A DNA stretch of 64,000 bases from Erysipelotrichaceae bacterium (GCA_017512885.1 JAFWEP010000003.1:124001-188000); one strand, 5' to 3'; counted from the stretch's first letter, positions 9,823-18,552 are shown. The notes: a model not told the origin generated them from the sequence alone. Made by a program: numbers and translations.

Positions 9823-12723
9823 TTACTGTGGGTACTTCTGCAGCAGGTCCATATAGAGACTGTCCAGGTTATCTGCCGAGGACAGCAGATCCCTGCCCAG
9901 TGTCTGCATCTCTCCTCCCTCCGGACCGAGAGTGAGCGTATTGTCCAGAGGACAGGTCTCGATCAGATAGTCCGTACCGCCATCCCGATGCAGGCGTACG
10001 GTCAGCGATCCTCCGCCGATACTGACTCCGTAGATATAGTCTTCGGCTGCTTCCATCCGTCCTAAGCGCTCATAACACTCCCGGATCTCTTCCGGATCGC
10101 TCAGCCGGATCTCAGTCTTCTCACCGTAACTGCTGTAGGTCACGATGATCTCATCGACTTCTTCGCCGCTGTCCAGATACAGCAGGGAGTGTTCCTTCTG
10201 ATAGAAGGCATAGGACGTTTCGATCGAGAGCACATCGGCCACTTCGGCAGTCTTATTGGTGAAGGTCATCTCGTAAGGCCGGTATGTCACCTTGACGCCT
10301 TCCCCGACTTCCAGTCCGTCCAGCTGTTCCTCTTCCGCAAAGAAGATGAGCGGAGTCTCTGCACTGCTGAACAGGTCAAGTTCCCACTTTCCCTCTTTGA
10401 TCGTTGAAGGATGCATGGACGCGATCTGTCCCTGAGCGCTGTAAGTTCGTACCGGATCCGTTACCAGGCCCCAGCCGTCATAGCTCACATAGCCCTCACC
10501 CTGTTTTTCCCGGTACTGCATATGCAGCAGGATCGTTCTGTCGATCCTTTCGATCACCTGCAGGGAAAGGAGACCTTTCTGATCAGCCGTAACGGCGCCC
10601 ATCGACTCCAGCCATTCACTGGAGGTCGTATCGATCAGGAAGATATCCGGGACCGGTTCCGGATCCTGCTGCAGGAACTGTGCAAACAGAGACTCCTCGA
10701 AGGCAATCGTTCCGGGATCGAGGACACCGTTTTCATAGATATTGTTGTTGAGGCGTTCGCCATACAGGTCTTTTACCATCTCCAAGAGCGGATAGTAAGA
10801 GATCTCTTCATTCAGTTCCTCGCACCAGCACCAGCCTGCTTCGTAACCTGTCGCTTCCTTTCCGGATGTGACTTTGCAGGCATCGCTTCGTACCGGCGTC
10901 ATTTCCAATGGGAACCACTGTTTCAGGAGATCCGGATCCGCGATATATGTCTTCGCTTCCTTGGTCCAGGAACTGTCATAATCGATCAGGACCGTCTCCG
11001 GATAAGTCGCCTGTTCATAGTCATAGTGCGTCATCCGGTAGATCGGCGTCTGCTGCGGATCATCCGTAAAGTAGCCCGGCACGGCGTAGCAGGAGATCTC
11101 ACTGCCGATATTCTTTGCCTGTGTAAAGGGTGTCATATCTTCGTGATAATCTACCAGCAGATCGCAGTCATTCTCGCTCAGATGAAACTTCCGCCACTCT
11201 GCTTCCACTTCCTTTTCGCCGACGTGATCACGCAGCAGGACCTCTTCTCCGGTCTGTACGAAGTAATGTCCTTCCGCGTTGAAGATCACTTTAAGTGTTG
11301 CTGAATAGGTCACCGGTATCGAATCCGGCAGCGGCCGGGAAGAAGCTTCATAAGTACCGAGCGTCAGTTCTTCGCCGAAGACGATCGGTCTCTTTCTGCT
11401 GTCGCTGAGAGTCCTGACCGTTTCAATGGAGAAGGAAAAATCGGTAGTATTCAGGTAGTTACTGCTTCCAAAGACGACCGGAGCACAGATCTCTTTTTCT
11501 CCTGCCGTCACTCGCAGGCGCATCCCGCGCATCCGATGGTTGCTCATGATGTTCGGATCGCTGATCACACGGATCTCTTTCCAGTCGGAAGCAGACAGCA
11601 GATCGTAAGAGACTGTCCTTTCATAAGTATCCTCCAGCCACTCATTGCGGTAATACTCTGTCTGGAACGTCACCGTCTGCGGTCTCTCTTTCAGCCGGAA
11701 AGAGTATTGCAGGTCCTTCAGCTCCATGCCCTGGACCTCCGTGTTGTCAGTCATTTTCTTCAGTTCGATAGTATTGCCGGCATTGCGGTCCGTCAGCAGA
11801 CCGATGCCTGCCGCCAAGCAGAGCAGCAGTGCCAGTGCAAGGACGATGACTTTCGGTCTCTTCCAGTTCGCCAGATTGACGATCCGTTTTCCGGTATCCC
11901 CTTCCCCGAAAGCTAACGGCATGCCCGGCGTCAGTTTCCTTCCCGCCGCGAGACGCAGCAGAGAAGCCGAGTAAGCCGGACGGATCTCTTCGCCCAATTC
12001 CGAGATGACTGCTTCGTCACAGCTCATCTCCATGTCTCTTTCAGCCAGGAAGAAAGCCAGCCAGACCAGCGGGTTGAACCAGTGCAGGCAGAGTGCCAGA
12101 TAATATAAGGCCTTGACCCAGGGATCTTTCCGGCGGATATGATAGCGTTCATGGAGCAGGATATAGCCGGTCTCTTCCGGACTCAGGGAAGACGGCAGAT
12201 AGATCTTCGGACGGATGAGACCGAGCACGAAAGGCGTATCGATCTGATCGGCATAGTAGACATTTTCTCCGGCCGGTACGGAGACCAGCAGCCGTTCCTT
12301 CAGCCCGTGATACGACAGCGCACTGTACAGCAGCATCGCTCCGACTCCGCTGAGCCAGAGGTACGGCAGGATCTTTCCTGCGGAAAACTGCGAAGCAGCA
12401 GCCGTTTCTTCTTTGATCGCCGGAACAGCGATCGTCTCTTCGTGGACGACGGTTTCCGGTCTTTCTGAAACGACCGGAGCCTGCGGTCTTTCCGCCGGCA
12501 GCACGATCGTCTGCATCTCCCGGAGATCTTCCTTTTCGAAGAGACCGACCGGTGTCTCCGGCGTGAACGGACACAGGAGACGGAAGAGCACGATCAGCCA
12601 GAGAGCGTAGGAAAACACCTTCGGCAGTTTCTTCAAAGGGAAACGGAGCAGGCAGATCACCGCAATGACCAGCGCCCCGGTCAGGCTCATATTCAGGATC
12701 CCGCCAAACAACTTCTCCAGCAT
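9823..12723 (-). CDS. BlaR1/MecR1-like M56 metalloprotease sensor
   Basis: A 966-residue membrane protein. Helices near residues 8-28, 36-52, 116-136 and about 285-305 form the M56 core. HERYH at residues 191-195 is the HExxH zinc site and a later ERDMEMSCDEAV supplies the third ligand. In BlaR1 this protease inactivates BlaI on signal. The roughly 650 extracellular residues do not show the penicillin-binding sensor pattern of classical BlaR1, so the signal may not be a beta-lactam. The ATG at 12723 follows the blaI stop by 2 nt with AAGGAG just upstream. Confidence 0.85.
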   Translation of the reverse strand: MLEKLFGGILNMSLTGALVIAVICLLRFPLKKLPKVFSYALWLIVLFRLLCPFTPETPVGLFEKEDLREMQTIVLPAERPQAPVVSERPETVVHEETIAVPAIKEETAAASQFSAGKILPYLWLSGVGAMLLYSALSYHGLKERLLVSVPAGENVYYADQIDTPFVLGLIRPKIYLPSSLSPEETGYILLHERYHIRRKDPWVKALYYLALCLHWFNPLVWLAFFLAERDMEMSCDEAVISELGEEIRPAYSASLLRLAAGRKLTPGMPLAFGEGDTGKRIVNLANWKRPKVIVLALALLLCLAAGIGLLTDRNAGNTIELKKMTDNTEVQGMELKDLQYSFRLKERPQTVTFQTEYYRNEWLEDTYERTVSYDLLSASDWKEIRVISDPNIMSNHRMRGMRLRVTAGEKEICAPVVFGSSNYLNTTDFSFSIETVRTLSDSRKRPIVFGEELTLGTYEASSRPLPDSIPVTYSATLKVIFNAEGHYFVQTGEEVLLRDHVGEKEVEAEWRKFHLSENDCDLLVDYHEDMTPFTQAKNIGSEISCYAVPGYFTDDPQQTPIYRMTHYDYEQATYPETVLIDYDSSWTKEAKTYIADPDLLKQWFPLEMTPVRSDACKVTSGKEATGYEAGWCWCEELNEEISYYPLLEMVKDLYGERLNNNIYENGVLDPGTIAFEESLFAQFLQQDPEPVPDIFLIDTTSSEWLESMGAVTADQKGLLSLQVIERIDRTILLHMQYREKQGEGYVSYDGWGLVTDPVRTYSAQGQIASMHPSTIKEGKWELDLFSSAETPLIFFAEEEQLDGLEVGEGVKVTYRPYEMTFTNKTAEVADVLSIETSYAFYQKEHSLLYLDSGEEVDEIIVTYSSYGEKTEIRLSDPEEIRECYERLGRMEAAEDYIYGVSIGGGSLTVRLHRDGGTDYLIETCPLDNTLTLGPEGGEMQTLGRDLLSSADNLDSLYMDLLQKYPQ

Positions 12724-12725
12724 AG

Positions 12726-13094
12726 TCACTCCTTCATCTGCGCAATGATCTTCTCGAGATCTTCGATCTCCTTTTCACTGAGACGCCGGCGCTTGCTGAA
12801 GGCTGTCAGAAAGGCCGGCAAAGAACCCTGAAAGGTATCGTCCACGAACTGTTCACTTTGAATGGTATAGAAGGTATTCTTGTCCATCAGCGAAGTGACG
12901 GTCCCCTTCTCATTCTGAAAGAGCCCGCGCTCGCAGAGACGTTTTAAAACGGTATAAGTCGTCGACTTCTTCCAGGAGAGCTTTTCTTCCGCGAGCTTCG
13001 CCAGCTCGCTCGAAGAGATCGGTTCCTTCTCCCAGATGATGTCGGCAAACTTTTCTTCGATCACACCTAAACGGATATCCGGCATAGTCGTCAC
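12726..13094 (-). CDS. BlaI/MecI/CopY-family repressor
   Basis: A 122-residue winged-helix repressor. The N-terminal half (RLGVIEEKFADIIWEK, then KKSTTYTVLKRLCERGLF) is the BlaI/MecI DNA-binding domain and the C-terminal half (FLTAFSKRRRLSEKEIEDLEKII) the dimerisation and cleavage region. It is cotranscribed with the M56 sensor and preceded by two matching operators, so it very probably represses its own operon. No beta-lactamase or penicillin-binding protein gene is adjacent. Confidence 0.9.
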   Translation of the reverse strand: MTTMPDIRLGVIEEKFADIIWEKEPISSSELAKLAEEKLSWKKSTTYTVLKRLCERGLFQNEKGTVTSLMDKNTFYTIQSEQFVDDTFQGSLPAFLTAFSKRRRLSEKEIEDLEKIIAQMKE

Positions 13095-13293: not shown

Positions 13294-13446
13294 TTATGGT
13301 TTCCTGTATTTCACGGCATAGGTCTCTGTCTTTATGATCTGATACTCCAGTTTCCTGTATAAACGCATCGCCCGTTCGTTAGCCGGCTCGCAATACATAT
13401 ACGGCTTATTCCCGAACTTCAGACATTCATCATCCGGAAAGATCAT
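13294..13446 (-). pseudogene. Remnant of a GNAT acetyltransferase (C-terminal end)
   Basis: A 50-codon frame reads from an ATG at 13446 to TAA, ending in PANERAMRLYRKLEYQIIKT. That is the characteristic last strand and helix region of GNAT N-acetyltransferases (asn-x3-A-x2-LYxKxGF/Y). A stop codon lies immediately upstream in frame and the acetyl-CoA-binding loop is missing, so it is a decayed fragment. It lies downstream of the ABC ATPase in an AT-richer stretch. Confidence 0.6.
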
Positions 13447-13470
13447 TCCGGCATGTTTATATCAGCGTTT

Positions 13471-14130
13471 TTATCGAGTTTCGAGGATCTTCTTCCCGGT
13501 GATCGTGAACAACCTATCCGCTTCGCTGATCACTTCCGGATCATGAGAAACGACGATCATCGTTTTGCCTGTTTCATGTACCAGTGCTTTCAGCAGTTTT
13601 ATGATCTCCCGGCTCGTCTCCAGATCCAGATTTCCGGTAGGTTCATCCGCCAGGATGATATCTTTTTTCGTCAGCAAAGCTCTCGCAATAGCGACACGCT
13701 GCTGCTCGCCTCCGGAAAGAATACTGACCTTACGGGAAAACTGATCTTCCCGGATCCCAAGACGGCGCAGGGTCCTGCTGCATAAATCCGCATCGTATTT
13801 CGTGTCGCTGATCGCCAACGCGCAGCGAATGTTGTCCAGTACGCTCAGGTTACCGAAGAGATTGAAATTCTGAAAAATGAAGGCGATCTTCTTCCGACGG
13901 AATTCATCTCCATCCAATTGGCGTATATCTGTGCGATCAAACAGGATCCGACCTTCATATTCGGTCTCAAAGCCGCCCAGACAATACAATAAAGAAGTTT
14001 TCCCACAACCGGAACGGCCGGACAAAACATTCAATATACCTTCTGAAAAAGAGACATTCACATCTTTCAGCAGAACACGCAGATGATCACCATCCGGATA
14101 AGCATAAGAAAGATTTTTGATCTCAATCAC
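13471..14130 (-). CDS. ABC transporter ATP-binding protein, MacB/LolD type
   Basis: A 219-residue ATPase with Walker A GRSGCGKTS near residue 38, Q-loop IFQNFNLF, signature LSGGEQQR, Walker B IILADEPTGNLD and H-loop VSHD. The short length and LADEPTGNLD wording place it in the MacB/LolD/BceA group that works with FtsX-like permeases. The start is GTG at 14130, with AAAGGGG 9 nt upstream, and overlaps the permease stop by 8 nt. It energises the two permeases upstream; the exported or sensed substrate is probably a peptide or small protein. Confidence 0.9.
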   Translation of the reverse strand: MIEIKNLSYAYPDGDHLRVLLKDVNVSFSEGILNVLSGRSGCGKTSLLYCLGGFETEYEGRILFDRTDIRQLDGDEFRRKKIAFIFQNFNLFGNLSVLDNIRCALAISDTKYDADLCSRTLRRLGIREDQFSRKVSILSGGEQQRVAIARALLTKKDIILADEPTGNLDLETSREIIKLLKALVHETGKTMIVVSHDPEVISEADRLFTITGKKILETR

Positions 14131-15514
14131 GAACCCGTACCCCTTTCGTCAGTTTCTTCCTCTGCAGGAACACCGCTGTTCCGATGACCAGCAGATCAAA
14201 CAAGAAGATCATTCCCTGAAGCGGCCAATCAATATTTCCATGGAAATCAGGCAAGACTGTCTGAACGAATTCACCGTTTAGTGAATATGCATAAAACTCC
14301 TGCAAATACCTTTGCGAGGTGGCTGTTAGATAACGATCTATACCATACGTAATGAGGTACTCCGAAAAGACCCCCAAAAGCATCGTCAGCAGTACACAAC
14401 CGCTAAGGATCAGCATTACTGTCCGGTGCAGCTTCTTCAGAGATATACCTTGGATATAGAACAGCCGAAGGTCTTTTTGGATCCTCAGAAGATAATAGCG
14501 CACATACGAAATAAGAAAAGGCAGATACAGCAATGTCAACAGTACACAGAAAAAGGACGAGATCTTTTTGATCAACAGGATCTGTTTCAGTTGCTGCGCT
14601 ATATCAGTGCGGGACACTCTGACGCCGGTATCATAGATCCCTCCCGTCTTCCAGGAGTAATCATTGATATCCTGTACTGCATCTTCGATCTTTTTCTGAA
14701 AGTTCAAATAGCTTTCATGATCTTTCAAAGAAAAAACGATATTATCTATGTTCATACCGCCGTAATACTTCCCATCAAAGATCCCTCCGTTTAAATAGGA
14801 GTGCTCCTGATACAGTTTTTCCATAGTGCGGTTTTTCAGCAGGAACCCGTGCGAGTTCAGAAAAGTATCCTCCGCTCCATAACTATCGTCATAACGATCA
14901 AACGTATGGTAATAGCCGGAGACTTTCAAAGTGATGAGTTCCTCTCCTGAATCCTGTGCGGTCAGGTCGAGCGTTGAGCCGATTGGGAAAAGATCATGGT
15001 AAACATGTGGAACAATGATCTCGTCTTCCTGCAGTTCCTGAGTCAGACCGTCAAGCAAAAGTCCCTGTCGGTCGGTGAAAGAAAGATCCTCGATGCCGAA
15101 AGTTGTACCCCAGACTGTGCTCTCACCGCAGATAAAAAACATAGGTTGAGAAAGATTATACGAAAAGTAAACAACATCCTCATCATTTCCAAGTTCCTTT
15201 ACTTTCTGAAGAAAGTGATCAACACAGAGAAGATATTCATCGGTGTATGGCCGGTTTCCATCCGGGTCAAAAGCAACGTCATTTCCTAAACGGCTCACTC
15301 TGGTCAATGATCCGAAAAGATGATCATTATTCAGCGTGTAAGCACTCCTGATCGTACTGTAAAGCTCATTTTCGCTTCTGGCAGCATCCCTCAATACGAA
15401 GACCTGAGCGATCACGATATTCGCAAGCAAAAACATCAGCATCAAAGGAACCGGTGTTCTGTGCCTGAGAAAGTATCGAATGGGTGCGATATGCTGCTTC
15501 TCAATCTGTTTCAT
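14123..15514 (-). CDS. FtsX/MacB-like permease A
   Basis: A 463-residue membrane protein. One helix lies near residues 23-43, a roughly 250-residue external domain follows, and three helices cluster near residues 318-343, 365-390 and 430-450. This one-plus-three layout is that of MacB/FtsX permeases. I find no clear family name for the external domain. The start at 15514 lies inside the last codons of permease B and has GGAG 8 nt upstream. Codon use and base composition are more AT-rich than in the flanking operons. Confidence 0.75.
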   Translation of the reverse strand: MKQIEKQHIAPIRYFLRHRTPVPLMLMFLLANIVIAQVFVLRDAARSENELYSTIRSAYTLNNDHLFGSLTRVSRLGNDVAFDPDGNRPYTDEYLLCVDHFLQKVKELGNDEDVVYFSYNLSQPMFFICGESTVWGTTFGIEDLSFTDRQGLLLDGLTQELQEDEIIVPHVYHDLFPIGSTLDLTAQDSGEELITLKVSGYYHTFDRYDDSYGAEDTFLNSHGFLLKNRTMEKLYQEHSYLNGGIFDGKYYGGMNIDNIVFSLKDHESYLNFQKKIEDAVQDINDYSWKTGGIYDTGVRVSRTDIAQQLKQILLIKKISSFFCVLLTLLYLPFLISYVRYYLLRIQKDLRLFYIQGISLKKLHRTVMLILSGCVLLTMLLGVFSEYLITYGIDRYLTATSQRYLQEFYAYSLNGEFVQTVLPDFHGNIDWPLQGMIFLFDLLVIGTAVFLQRKKLTKGVRVRD

Positions 15515-17021
15515 TCAATATGCTCCGATAATCGTTTTGAACAGTTCTGCAGCGAAGAAAAATATAGAAGGACAGCAGACACACTGCTGCGGCAATGATC
15601 AATACCGGCAGATAGATCCAAGCCTGACCATACAAGCGCATATCTTCTGCCCGAAAAGCCAGATCTGCCGGATGAGCATAAGGGAAAGAATGAGCGAAAT
15701 CACTGCTCTGCATATCCAGAAACACCTGTTTTGCGAAAGTGTTTGTCATTATAAAAGCAGGAATAACGGAAAGAAGGATCGAGATCATCATGACCGCTCC
15801 TTCCAGGCAGGTCAGCAGCCGACAGACTTTTTCCTTTTTCAGTCCCAGTGATGAGTATTGAAAGACCATGCGCATACTGTCCCAAGCTGCGTTGAACAGT
15901 ATCAGCAAGACCGAGGAAAATGCCACAAGACCGCTCAGGACCGACAGAAGACGGATATTCTCTGAAAAGGAAAATACTGCAGCGATATACTCTGCATAGT
16001 CTTTAGTAGTCGCTGAATAAAACACTTTTCCTTCCTGATAAGCAATGGAGCTTTCGATAAAAGATACCAGCTCATTTAATTCCTGCAAGGATGAGCAATG
16101 AAAGATCGTCGAATAATAATGCAAGGTTTGTCTGGAAGAAGAATAGTAAGGATTATGCAGTTCCCGTTCTTCGATCGATCTCTGCAAATCGAAAACAAAT
16201 TGCTGGGGCACATAGATCGGCATGCCGTTACCGGCCTTTACGGCCGCATCATACTCAACAAAAGAATCAAATCCGCCTACTCTGTTGACTGTCCGGTATT
16301 CACCGACGATCTCCAGATCATAACTATCAATGGACTGGCAGTGATAGGGATCGGTAATATCCATCAGATGCACGATCAGATGGTCGCCCGGTTGCGGATC
16401 CAGGATATGATCACGGTCAGACAGCCGGTATGTTTCAGGGATCACACATACAGGATCGTTTCTTTCGATCTCCTGCGTTGTTATACTTCTTCCTTTAGTG
16501 ATCACGATCTGAAACAAAACGTCCAGATGGTCTTCTCGTTCACACCCTCGGAACTGACTCCAGATCCCGGGCTGTGCTTCTTCCTGAAAGTGCCGGATTT
16601 CCGCATCATAATTTGCTGCAGAGTTAATGTTGCCCGATGGAGCGAAAAGAGTCAGTCTTCCCTCTTCGATGTCACCCACAAAAACCGGCATCGTTGCATC
16701 TGTATTCACATAAGAGTTCGCATATATATACGGAAACTGTTCTTCCAGTTCCTGGCTGAACCGAAACAGTTCGGACGCATCGTCATTATGAAGCGGCGAT
16801 GCCCCGTTATCCTTGAGTATCGCACGCCGGGCACCGGATGTTTCTTCCGAAGTTAATGCAAGATAATAATCGATACTGCCGATCACCTGTTCCTGATAAA
16901 GCGTGGCTGCCTGTGCAGCAAGCAACGAAGAAAGGACTATGACAGAAAGGACAATATAAACTATTGCCCTTCTTAATATGGAATTACGATTCTGTCGATA
17001 TAGAAGATACGACAGTTTCAT
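15501..17021 (-). CDS. FtsX/MacB-like permease B
   Basis: A 506-residue partner of permease A with the same plan: an N-terminal helix near residues 17-40, a long external domain (about 45-340), then helices near 345-370, 400-425 and 465-490. Its stop overlaps the start of permease A by 14 nt, so the pair is coupled and probably forms a heterodimer. There is no good ribosome site before its ATG, only 13 nt after the secreted-protein stop; expression may depend on coupling to that gene. Confidence 0.7.
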   Translation of the reverse strand: MKLSYLLYRQNRNSILRRAIVYIVLSVIVLSSLLAAQAATLYQEQVIGSIDYYLALTSEETSGARRAILKDNGASPLHNDDASELFRFSQELEEQFPYIYANSYVNTDATMPVFVGDIEEGRLTLFAPSGNINSAANYDAEIRHFQEEAQPGIWSQFRGCEREDHLDVLFQIVITKGRSITTQEIERNDPVCVIPETYRLSDRDHILDPQPGDHLIVHLMDITDPYHCQSIDSYDLEIVGEYRTVNRVGGFDSFVEYDAAVKAGNGMPIYVPQQFVFDLQRSIEERELHNPYYSSSRQTLHYYSTIFHCSSLQELNELVSFIESSIAYQEGKVFYSATTKDYAEYIAAVFSFSENIRLLSVLSGLVAFSSVLLILFNAAWDSMRMVFQYSSLGLKKEKVCRLLTCLEGAVMMISILLSVIPAFIMTNTFAKQVFLDMQSSDFAHSFPYAHPADLAFRAEDMRLYGQAWIYLPVLIIAAAVCLLSFYIFLRCRTVQNDYRSILNETD

Positions 17022-17034
17022 TATTGTCTATATG

Positions 17035-17409
17035 CTACCAAACGGTAATGCTACTGGAAGTCGTATATCCGCCATAATAAACGGTAAAATATACGATTAC
17101 GGAATTGCCGCTTACCGCATAGGAAACATCATAGACAGATCCAGGACTTGCAGATACATTCAGAGAATACGACGTTATTGGTCCACTGGTCGTTGTGCGG
17201 TAAATGACGCCATTGACGTATACTGTCACGTAATAAGTAGCTGCCGGCGTCGAGATCGATACCTGTTTGCTTGTATTTACATCATGAGCTACAACTTCAT
17301 CGATGTCGATTGGGGTTTCCGGTTTTGTGGTTTCTTCGGCAAATGCATTCATAGGAGAAATTGCTGCAAGCATAAACACAGCCAGTATAACAGATAAGAC
17401 TTTTTTCAT
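17035..17409 (-). CDS. small secreted protein, first gene of the transporter operon
   Basis: A 124-residue protein with a signal peptide (KKVLSVILAVFMLAAISPMNAFA, cleavage likely after NAFA near residue 25). The mature part of about 100 residues is rich in Tyr, Val, Ser and Thr (YYVTVYVNG, YFTVYYGGY), consistent with a small beta-sheet protein and without cysteine. GGAGG lies 4 nt before the ATG. It begins the operon of two permeases and an ATPase, an arrangement reminiscent of lactococcin 972-type bacteriocin loci, but I see no direct similarity to that peptide family. Confidence 0.7.
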   Translation of the reverse strand: MKKVLSVILAVFMLAAISPMNAFAEETTKPETPIDIDEVVAHDVNTSKQVSISTPAATYYVTVYVNGVIYRTTTSGPITSYSLNVSASPGSVYDVSYAVSGNSVIVYFTVYYGGYTTSSSITVW

Positions 17410-17539
17410 TTGACCTCCTACTTATCGGTTTTTTGATCCATTCTGAAAACACGATTTAAATGATCCATTGGTATATCCCCCGTTCTTTTTTCGTCTTCAT
17501 TATTAAGGATAAATAGACGGAATATTGTGCTGAAGGAAT

Positions 17540-17575
17540 CACAATTGTGCCTATTGAAAAAGGCACAATTGTGCC
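17540..17575. promoter_or_regulatory. Paired palindromic operators in the divergent spacer
   Basis: CACAATTGTG occurs twice, at 17540-17549 and, extended to GGCACAATTGTGCC, at 17562-17575. Their centres are 24 bp apart, so they lie on nearly the same face of the helix. They sit between the two divergent secreted-protein genes in a strongly AT-rich spacer (17410-17636) that holds no gene. The nearby XRE regulator is the obvious candidate to bind them. Confidence 0.65.
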
Positions 17576-17636
17576 GGTCCTATCTCAAGCGGATGTTTTT
17601 CTTTTTGCAATAATTAAAAAAAGGAGGAATTCTATA

Positions 17637-18101
17637 GTGAAGCAGATCAAACTATTATTCATTCTTACTTGCCTGTGCGGATGTCTCTTGAACAACGTGT
17701 ATGCAGAAGACACCTTGCTATCTCAAAAGGAAAAAACGCCTTCGTATGTTTTCGACTTGTCTTTAGATCGAGATCAAACTGCACAGTTTTCGTCCGATGA
17801 TGGTCTACTGACAACAATCAGCATCGTTAGTTCACGATCGGTTTCCGGCGAAAAGACGGTTTCTGTTACAAACTCACAGATCTCATTGTCTTACAAAGTA
17901 TATATATCCGGTAATTCTATTACCAATGCCTACGACAAATCGTATTATTCAACTTACTGGAACATAACTTCAGATGTTCTGACTCTAGACTCCAGCTCGC
18001 AAGCAACTTATACAGTTCAATGTAAAAGACTGCTGATATCTACAACAAAACATCTCCGCGCAACTTTGAATGATGGGAGTCTTACTGTTTCTTATTATTG
18101 A
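17637..18101 (+). CDS. secreted protein, possibly DUF5626-like
   Basis: A 154-residue exported protein. The start is GTG at 17637, because AAGGAGG lies 9 nt upstream and a signal sequence (KQIKLLFILTCLCGCLLNNVYAED) begins there; cleavage is likely after VYA. The cysteines in the signal do not make a clear lipobox. The mature part is Ser/Thr/Tyr-rich and contains ISLSYKVYISGNSITNAYD, which recalls DUF5626 proteins of Gram-positive bacteria; I am not certain of that match. It is divergent from the other secreted-protein gene across shared palindromes. Confidence 0.65.
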   Translation: MKQIKLLFILTCLCGCLLNNVYAEDTLLSQKEKTPSYVFDLSLDRDQTAQFSSDDGLLTTISIVSSRSVSGEKTVSVTNSQISLSYKVYISGNSITNAYDKSYYSTYWNITSDVLTLDSSSQATYTVQCKRLLISTTKHLRATLNDGSLTVSYY

Positions 18102-18105
18102 TCGA

Positions 18106-18552
18106 TCAGGTAACAGTTACCAGCGAAGGGATAAGATCGATTCCGAAAACAAAGAGTATCTGATTTAAACAAAACAGAAATGTAATAATGTCGAGAATCA
18201 CAATGAGGATCGACATTTTCTTTTTCACGCTATATATGGTCAGCACAAGTGGAACGATCGTAAGCCAAGGTGAAAGAAGAACTGCGGCCAGATTTCCTAT
18301 AATGACTTTCAATTCCGCAGAGATTCCAGCGCTCTTCTTGGACGTCTTTATTTCTGAATTATCCTCTGCGAAATACTCCGCAGAGACATCGAAGTACTTT
18401 TCAAGAATGACTAGCTGTTCTTCACTGGGGAGTTTCTTACCGGTCTCCCATTTGGAAATGACCGTACGGTCAAATCCGATATCCCTCCCGAGTTGTTCCT
18501 GGTTGATCCCCTTCCGATGTCTCAGCTCTTTGATCTTCTCTCCAACACTCAT
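18106..18552 (-). CDS. XRE-family regulator with C-terminal membrane helices
   Basis: A 148-residue protein. The first 60 residues are a Cro/CI helix-turn-helix (KIKELRHRKGINQEQLGRDI, then ISKWETGKKLPS). The rest carries two or three hydrophobic helices near residues 83-105 and 112-140, so the regulator is probably anchored in the membrane and may sense the envelope or the nearby secreted peptides. It converges on the secreted-protein gene with a 4-nt gap. An in-frame GTG at 18558 is an alternative start; neither start has a strong ribosome site. Confidence 0.8.
   Translation of the reverse strand: MSVGEKIKELRHRKGINQEQLGRDIGFDRTVISKWETGKKLPSEEQLVILEKYFDVSAEYFAEDNSEIKTSKKSAGISAELKVIIGNLAAVLLSPWLTIVPLVLTIYSVKKKMSILIVILDIITFLFCLNQILFVFGIDLIPSLVTVT

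Follow-up and report, generated by a model that had tools for sequence, protein, structure and literature searches.

Within the 64,000 nucleotide stretch of Erysipelotrichaceae DNA analysed here (the window) is an AT-rich island made up of two mobile modules that are found apart from each other in relatives. One comprises a small putatively secreted protein (S1), two permeases and an ATPase, and the other a DUF5626 protein, also predicted to be secreted, and a membrane-linked XRE regulator. Twin palindromes and an acetyltransferase remnant complete the island (Table 1), a locus built from protein families without an earlier joint description. Our preferred, tentative reading, to which we give somewhat less than an even chance, is that it is a bacteriocin-like locus with self-protection by a type VII ABC complex and control by a membrane repressor.

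Table 1. Features of the island, with feature, position in the window, strand and details in that order.
GNAT acetyltransferase remnant, C-terminal ~50 aa, island edge	13294..13446	-	FR47 E 0.002, under family cut-off
ABC ATPase, MacB/LolD/FtsE type	13471..14130	-	PF00005 3.7e-32; best NCBIfam TIGR03608, 181.7 bits (cut-off 254.85)
Permease B, 463 aa	14123..15514	-	Overlaps ATPase and permease A genes; TM1, ~280 aa external domain, TM2-4
Permease A, 506 aa	15501..17021	-	Topology as permease B, four TM segments
S1, 124 aa, predicted Sec-secreted protein	17035..17409	-	Acidic stretch resembling TPExPIDxxE, ahead of a six-stranded beta domain; 13 nt gap to permease A
Twin palindromes CACAATTGTG (second copy GGCACAATTGTGCC)	17540-17549, 17564-17573	.	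Start-to-start 24 nt; between divergent S1 and DUF5626 genes
DUF5626, predicted Sec-secreted beta protein (Zea/Lmo2686 family)	17637..18101	+	GTG start, AGGAGG site; PF18540 1.7e-14
XRE regulator, C-terminal membrane segments	18106..18552	-	HTH_3 1.5e-13; convergent with DUF5626, 4 nt between stops

The island (13294-18552) has 43.6% GC and the 230 kb contig 54.2% (z -5.8), every other 5.3 kb stretch in a whole-contig scan having at least 47.3%, and GC3 is 0.38-0.52 for its six main genes versus 0.62-0.72 for the flanking genes. The original prediction of an island unlike its surroundings, with a decayed gene at its edge and holding a MacB-like ATPase, two permeases, two secreted proteins, an XRE protein and palindromes, is borne out. 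Three congeners retain the right-hand window genes (those for a phosphatase, a glycosylase and a 215 aa protein), with the site beside the phosphatase gene being occupied by a Tn916-type integrase and RepA_N in L122, a HIRAN protein and phosphoesterase in L123, and a pyridoxamine oxidase-like gene in L124. The DUF5626 gene is absent from all three congeners searched, direct protein search of them with permease A gave no match, and there the more sensitive permease profile retrieved only more distant FtsX-type permeases. These observations fit acquisition at a variable site, and most likely the island was acquired horizontally, in a gut bacterium. Conserved synteny with normal base composition in all relatives, which the original prediction had named as contrary evidence, was not encountered: the congeners have other genes at the site and lack DUF5626. 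The accompanying notion of ‘one unit’ stands in the sense of a single acquired unit and fails in the sense of one conserved block, the modules being separate in relatives.

What might have carried the island? Direct repeats of more than 9 bases were not found at its edges, plasmid searches with permease A and DUF5626 gave no match, and neither did phage searches with permease A and S1. A part in anti-phage defence was considered and rejected, the PADLOC matches being to generic ATPase and HTH entries together with one marginal DUF5626 match (E 0.008). Several of the comparison loci considered throughout are contig ends or come from draft assemblies, and gene calls in relatives are from open reading frames only.

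Judged by their topology and by the signatures of homologues, the permeases and ATPase are type VII (MacB/FtsX) ABC parts, in keeping with the MacB-like transporter first proposed. The two permeases are paralogous (hhalign E 9e-38) and the permease profile matches MacB and the MacB-like permease 5xu1. FtsX or MacB_PCD signatures above cut-off are found not in the window permeases themselves, only in homologues: MacB_PCD in that of permease B in L024, and FtsX in that of permease A in L025. Shared with MacB, LolCDE, FtsEX and YbbAP-TesA are a large external permease domain and an adjacent extracytoplasmic protein, and with LolCDE and FtsEX an ATPase separate from the permease; the window differs from these systems in having two different permeases, and S1 has no detected relationship to their known partners. 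Peptide export by the ABC components, as initially envisaged, is not upheld: the signal peptides of both secreted proteins are of the ordinary Sec kind, and the permeases are of type VII, whose parts are known to work from the outer face.

The S1, permease A, permease B and ATPase genes form a compact operon, the short gap after S1 being followed by overlaps of 14 and 8 nt. This order, common to the window, L024, L025 and L106, recurs in other Erysipelotrichaceae. S1 accompanies permease A in L106 and is absent in L107 where permease A is 97% identical; ABC genes without S1 are also present in L092-L095. These last, of genus g56 (L092:2136-8360, L093, L094 and L095), are the closest S1-free ABC relatives and adjoin mevalonate-pathway-like genes and a small five-TM protein, neighbours that hint at a role in the envelope or with a lipid carrier. 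A different arrangement is seen in L110 (4333-7294), with two near-identical ATPase genes, each behind a permease, in tandem downstream of a small secreted protein.

The structure of S1, predicted with high confidence (pLDDT ~95 over residues 40-123), has six beta strands, and the conserved ‘TPExPIDxxE’ segment follows the signal peptide. Among eight motif-bearing members mean pairwise identity is 47% in the segment after the signal peptide versus 25% in the beta domain. PDB comparisons of the fold gave no confident match to a solved structure, the best being 4k15 and weak (Z 6.2, rmsd 4.5 over 77 residues); lactococcin 972 was not among the fold matches listed, which excludes nothing. As 4k15, which is also the best structure for DUF5626, is weak for S1, a common origin of the two, though conceivable, is not claimed. 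Homology between them gained no support, hhalign giving E values of 0.11 and 0.06 without signal peptides and aligning only the signal peptide when these were included.

S1 is present with XRE and ABC genes, some split or extra, in L026, L166, L167 and L172, and a single genome (G228) has three different S1-ABC loci (L026, L166 and L172). It is also present with a membrane XRE alone (L169, L170, L171 and L174) or directly before a BlaI-BlaR1 pair (L168), none of these loci having a transporter or an evident immunity gene. Following the island in the window (9823-13094, minus strand), and with native base composition, are genes for a repressor of BlaI/MecI type and a BlaR1-type M56 sensor that, at 968 aa, is unusually long; to these the L168 pair has 37% and 31% identity. 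The occurrence of such a pair in both places may be coincidence.

Sequence and modelled fold both place the window DUF5626 protein in the Zea/Lmo2686 family. It matches PF18540 with 54.6 bits, above the gathering cut-off of 26.7, a profile of twelve members matches PDB 4k15 (Lmo2686) with E 7.9e-15, and its model superimposes on 4k15 with Z 13.3 and rmsd 1.7 over 94 residues, the next entry being at Z 5.1. One of the two secreted proteins, DUF5626, is thus a clear member of a known family. Pfam has no assigned function for PF18540, and a literature search found no paper naming DUF5626. Zea, which is Lmo2686, is a secreted hexameric RNA-binding Listeria protein with a pI of 8.4 (PMC6907008), its gene being within an operon induced by wall-acting antibiotics (PMC6686043). 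Fold, sequence profile and Sec signal are common to Zea and the window protein. However, window-type proteins are mostly acidic (pI 5.7 for the mature window protein; relatives mostly 4.5-6.2, one 7.0 and one 8.5), so RNA binding should not be assumed for them, and they are paired with a membrane XRE gene, none having been reported for the Listeria operon. Of 272 genomes from the bacterial family 12 have DUF5626, and among 392 spread over the phylum it was found in none other than the window's own. A contig scan, for which the query was close relatives only, the full alignment being too diverse, found it in three Erysipelotrichaceae or Solobacterium assemblies.

DUF5626 is next to an XRE gene in 11 of the 12 readable loci, the window included, and wherever complete the XRE has membrane segments; the two genes are convergent with close stops in eight loci and divergent in three. 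The two make a likely sensing module, and the ‘sensing’ part of the original prediction is supported. Alignment and charge pattern reveal that the XRE proteins have in common a hydrophobic C-terminal part, a basic loop and a short tail, with a hydropathy scan giving just two membrane segments for that of the window. Going by the basic loop, the tail appears to be outside, on the same side as DUF5626.

The twin palindromes are likely operators of the XRE protein. CACAATTGTG has exactly two copies in the window (0.01 expected), and two in the whole 230 kb contig. CACA-N2/3-TGTG is 77 and 101 nt upstream of the DUF5626 start in the window, 79 nt upstream in L037 and 72 nt in L042, the chance of the two extra sites being ~3e-6 by a simple, post hoc rate estimate. 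Other loci have other palindromes upstream of DUF5626: GCAAC-N5-GTTGC at 70-78 nt in L036, L038 and L039, TTGACCGGTCAA at 63 nt in L040, and twin TTATTCATGAATAA at 111 and 131 nt in L033. Where the XRE was aligned, palindrome class tracks the recognition-helix class of the adjoining XRE, two aligned XRE proteins of the L036/L038/L039 group differing in recognition helix from the CACA class.

Unassigned secreted proteins of 200-290 aa are also encoded near DUF5626-XRE pairs (L037:9312-9974, L034:1512-2393, L036:1180-1788 and L033:7716-8366), some with small multi-TM genes close by, and might belong to this cassette as additional cargo. In L035 (9470-9910) a secreted gene divergent from DUF5626 has an apparent frameshift break after the signal peptide.

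The layout recalls lactococcin 972-type loci, as had been pointed out, without implying membership: the organisation is similar and every family model tested was missed. The scb (Lcn972-like) loci combine genes for a membrane protein and an ATPase with that for a beta peptide secreted by Sec, the functions of B and C being unproven, and in some pneumococci scbA has been lost and the B and C genes kept (PMC11796350). Like scbABC/ScbR, the window has a gene for a small, probably Sec-secreted beta protein, then membrane protein and ATPase genes with an HTH regulator alongside, and the absence of S1 in L107 resembles scbA loss with retained B and C. The window differs in having two four-TM permeases where those loci have a single bact_immun_7tm protein, and in adding the membrane-linked XRE and DUF5626 proteins. 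Lactococcin 972 membership was rejected, peptide, permeases and ATPase all missing the family models. Searches of NCBIfam and Pfam with S1, at E up to 10, gave no match to the lactococcin 972 family (TIGR01653 in NCBIfam, and its Pfam counterpart). Permeases A and B had no match to bact_immun_7tm (TIGR01654/DUF1430) in NCBIfam or Pfam. The ATPase is under the TIGR03608 cut-off (Table 1), and its likeness to that model is not diagnostic since related ATPases without S1 or a secreted partner give the same score. Among known bacteriocin or immunity models, none was matched above cut-off by any island component.

Divergent from a DUF5626-XRE pair in L040 (4-2247, minus strand) are genes for a bact_immun_7tm-like protein of 639 aa and a secreted one of 104 aa, in a layout as in the window. 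The former matches TIGR01654 with 2.1e-15, under its cut-off, and both window permease profiles gave hhalign probabilities below 2% against it; the latter is lactococcin 972-like by eye, with no Pfam or NCBIfam model match.

On the bacteriocin-like reading S1, exported by Sec, would be a small beta-sandwich antagonist that kills from outside, and permeases A and B with the ATPase would form a type VII mechanotransmission ABC complex giving the producer immunity by acting on S1, or on the S1 target, from the outer side of the membrane. The XRE, itself embedded in the membrane, would bind the twin palindromes and control both DUF5626 and the S1-ABC operon, with secreted DUF5626 perhaps being the extracellular partner that sets XRE activity, possibly through contact with the external C-terminal XRE tail. 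ToxR-ToxS and VtrA-VtrC, each a membrane-anchored DNA-binding protein with an extracytoplasmic beta-rich partner, provide a working analogy only: the XRE protein is not a winged helix, has several TM segments and a short tail, and the fold scores are weak (Z 3.4-4.0).

Bacteriocin-like function is favoured by the S1-ABC operon, by the absence of S1 beside a 97% identical permease (L107), by the three S1-ABC loci in G228 and by DUF5626-XRE being beside a bact_immun_7tm-like gene (L040); that S1 proteins diverge in the beta domain and yet retain the segment following the signal peptide also speaks for it. Against it are the S1-free ABC relatives in g56, the lack of a match to known models and S1 being without a confident fold match. 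It is further weakened, and signalling favoured, by the loci where S1 is with regulators only (L168, L169, L170, L171 and L174). The main rival, which we consider somewhat unlikely, is secreted-ligand signalling or envelope-stress sensing without killing, with S1 and DUF5626 as ligands or sensors read by membrane-linked regulators and the ABC complex resetting or relaying the signal. Consistent with it, besides those transporter-free S1-XRE pairs and the S1-BlaI-BlaR1 arrangement, is induction by wall-acting antibiotics of the operon with Listeria zea, a DUF5626 family member (PMC6686043). A membrane-linked regulator is also nearby in 8 of 9 loci with motif-bearing S1 and in 0 of 3 with motif-less secreted proteins (Fisher 0.018), the tally being our own on a small sample of related loci. 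However, signalling leaves unexplained the S1 loss in L107, the diverse S1 set in G228 and the bact_immun_7tm neighbour in L040.

It is improbable that S1 is instead a working extracytoplasmic partner of the type VII ABC complex, serving in envelope remodelling or removal of a lipid-like compound. The permease topology of TM1, external domain and TM2-4, the FtsX and MacB_PCD matches in homologues and the adjacency of the S1 gene are all in accord with this, and there are precedents for such partners in EnvC for FtsEX, LolA for LolCDE and TesA for YbbAP. Yet S1 is found without ABC genes in L168 and L169, ABC genes are found without S1 in L092-L095 and L107, and S1 sequence is poorly conserved. 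Very improbable is antimicrobial-peptide resistance of the BceAB- or MacAB-like detoxification kind with the secreted proteins as accessory binders. While MacB/FtsX-type permeases with a LolD/MacB-type ATPase accord with it, the island has two four-TM permeases and not a single ten-TM BceB-type one, its ATPase is not fused to a permease as in MacB, and it has no MacA adaptor, histidine kinase or response regulator.

A broader proposition, rather doubtful at present, is that the membrane-embedded XRE repressors, which would control Erysipelotrichaceae bacteriocin-like loci, have S1 and DUF5626 proteins as extracellular co-regulators, with contact via an XRE tail or domain exposed outside. Irrespective of this, the locus adds S1, a so far unnamed family of small secreted proteins that has a clear signature and recurs with a type VII ABC operon, and the DUF5626 family, Listeria Zea included, is now tied to a transcription factor linked to the membrane. 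Should the control step be real, the direct switch of a membrane repressor would be a secreted protein. Were the co-regulator reading true, there would be a family of switches consisting of a secreted beta protein and a membrane repressor, and the Zea fold would gain a role in gene control besides RNA binding.
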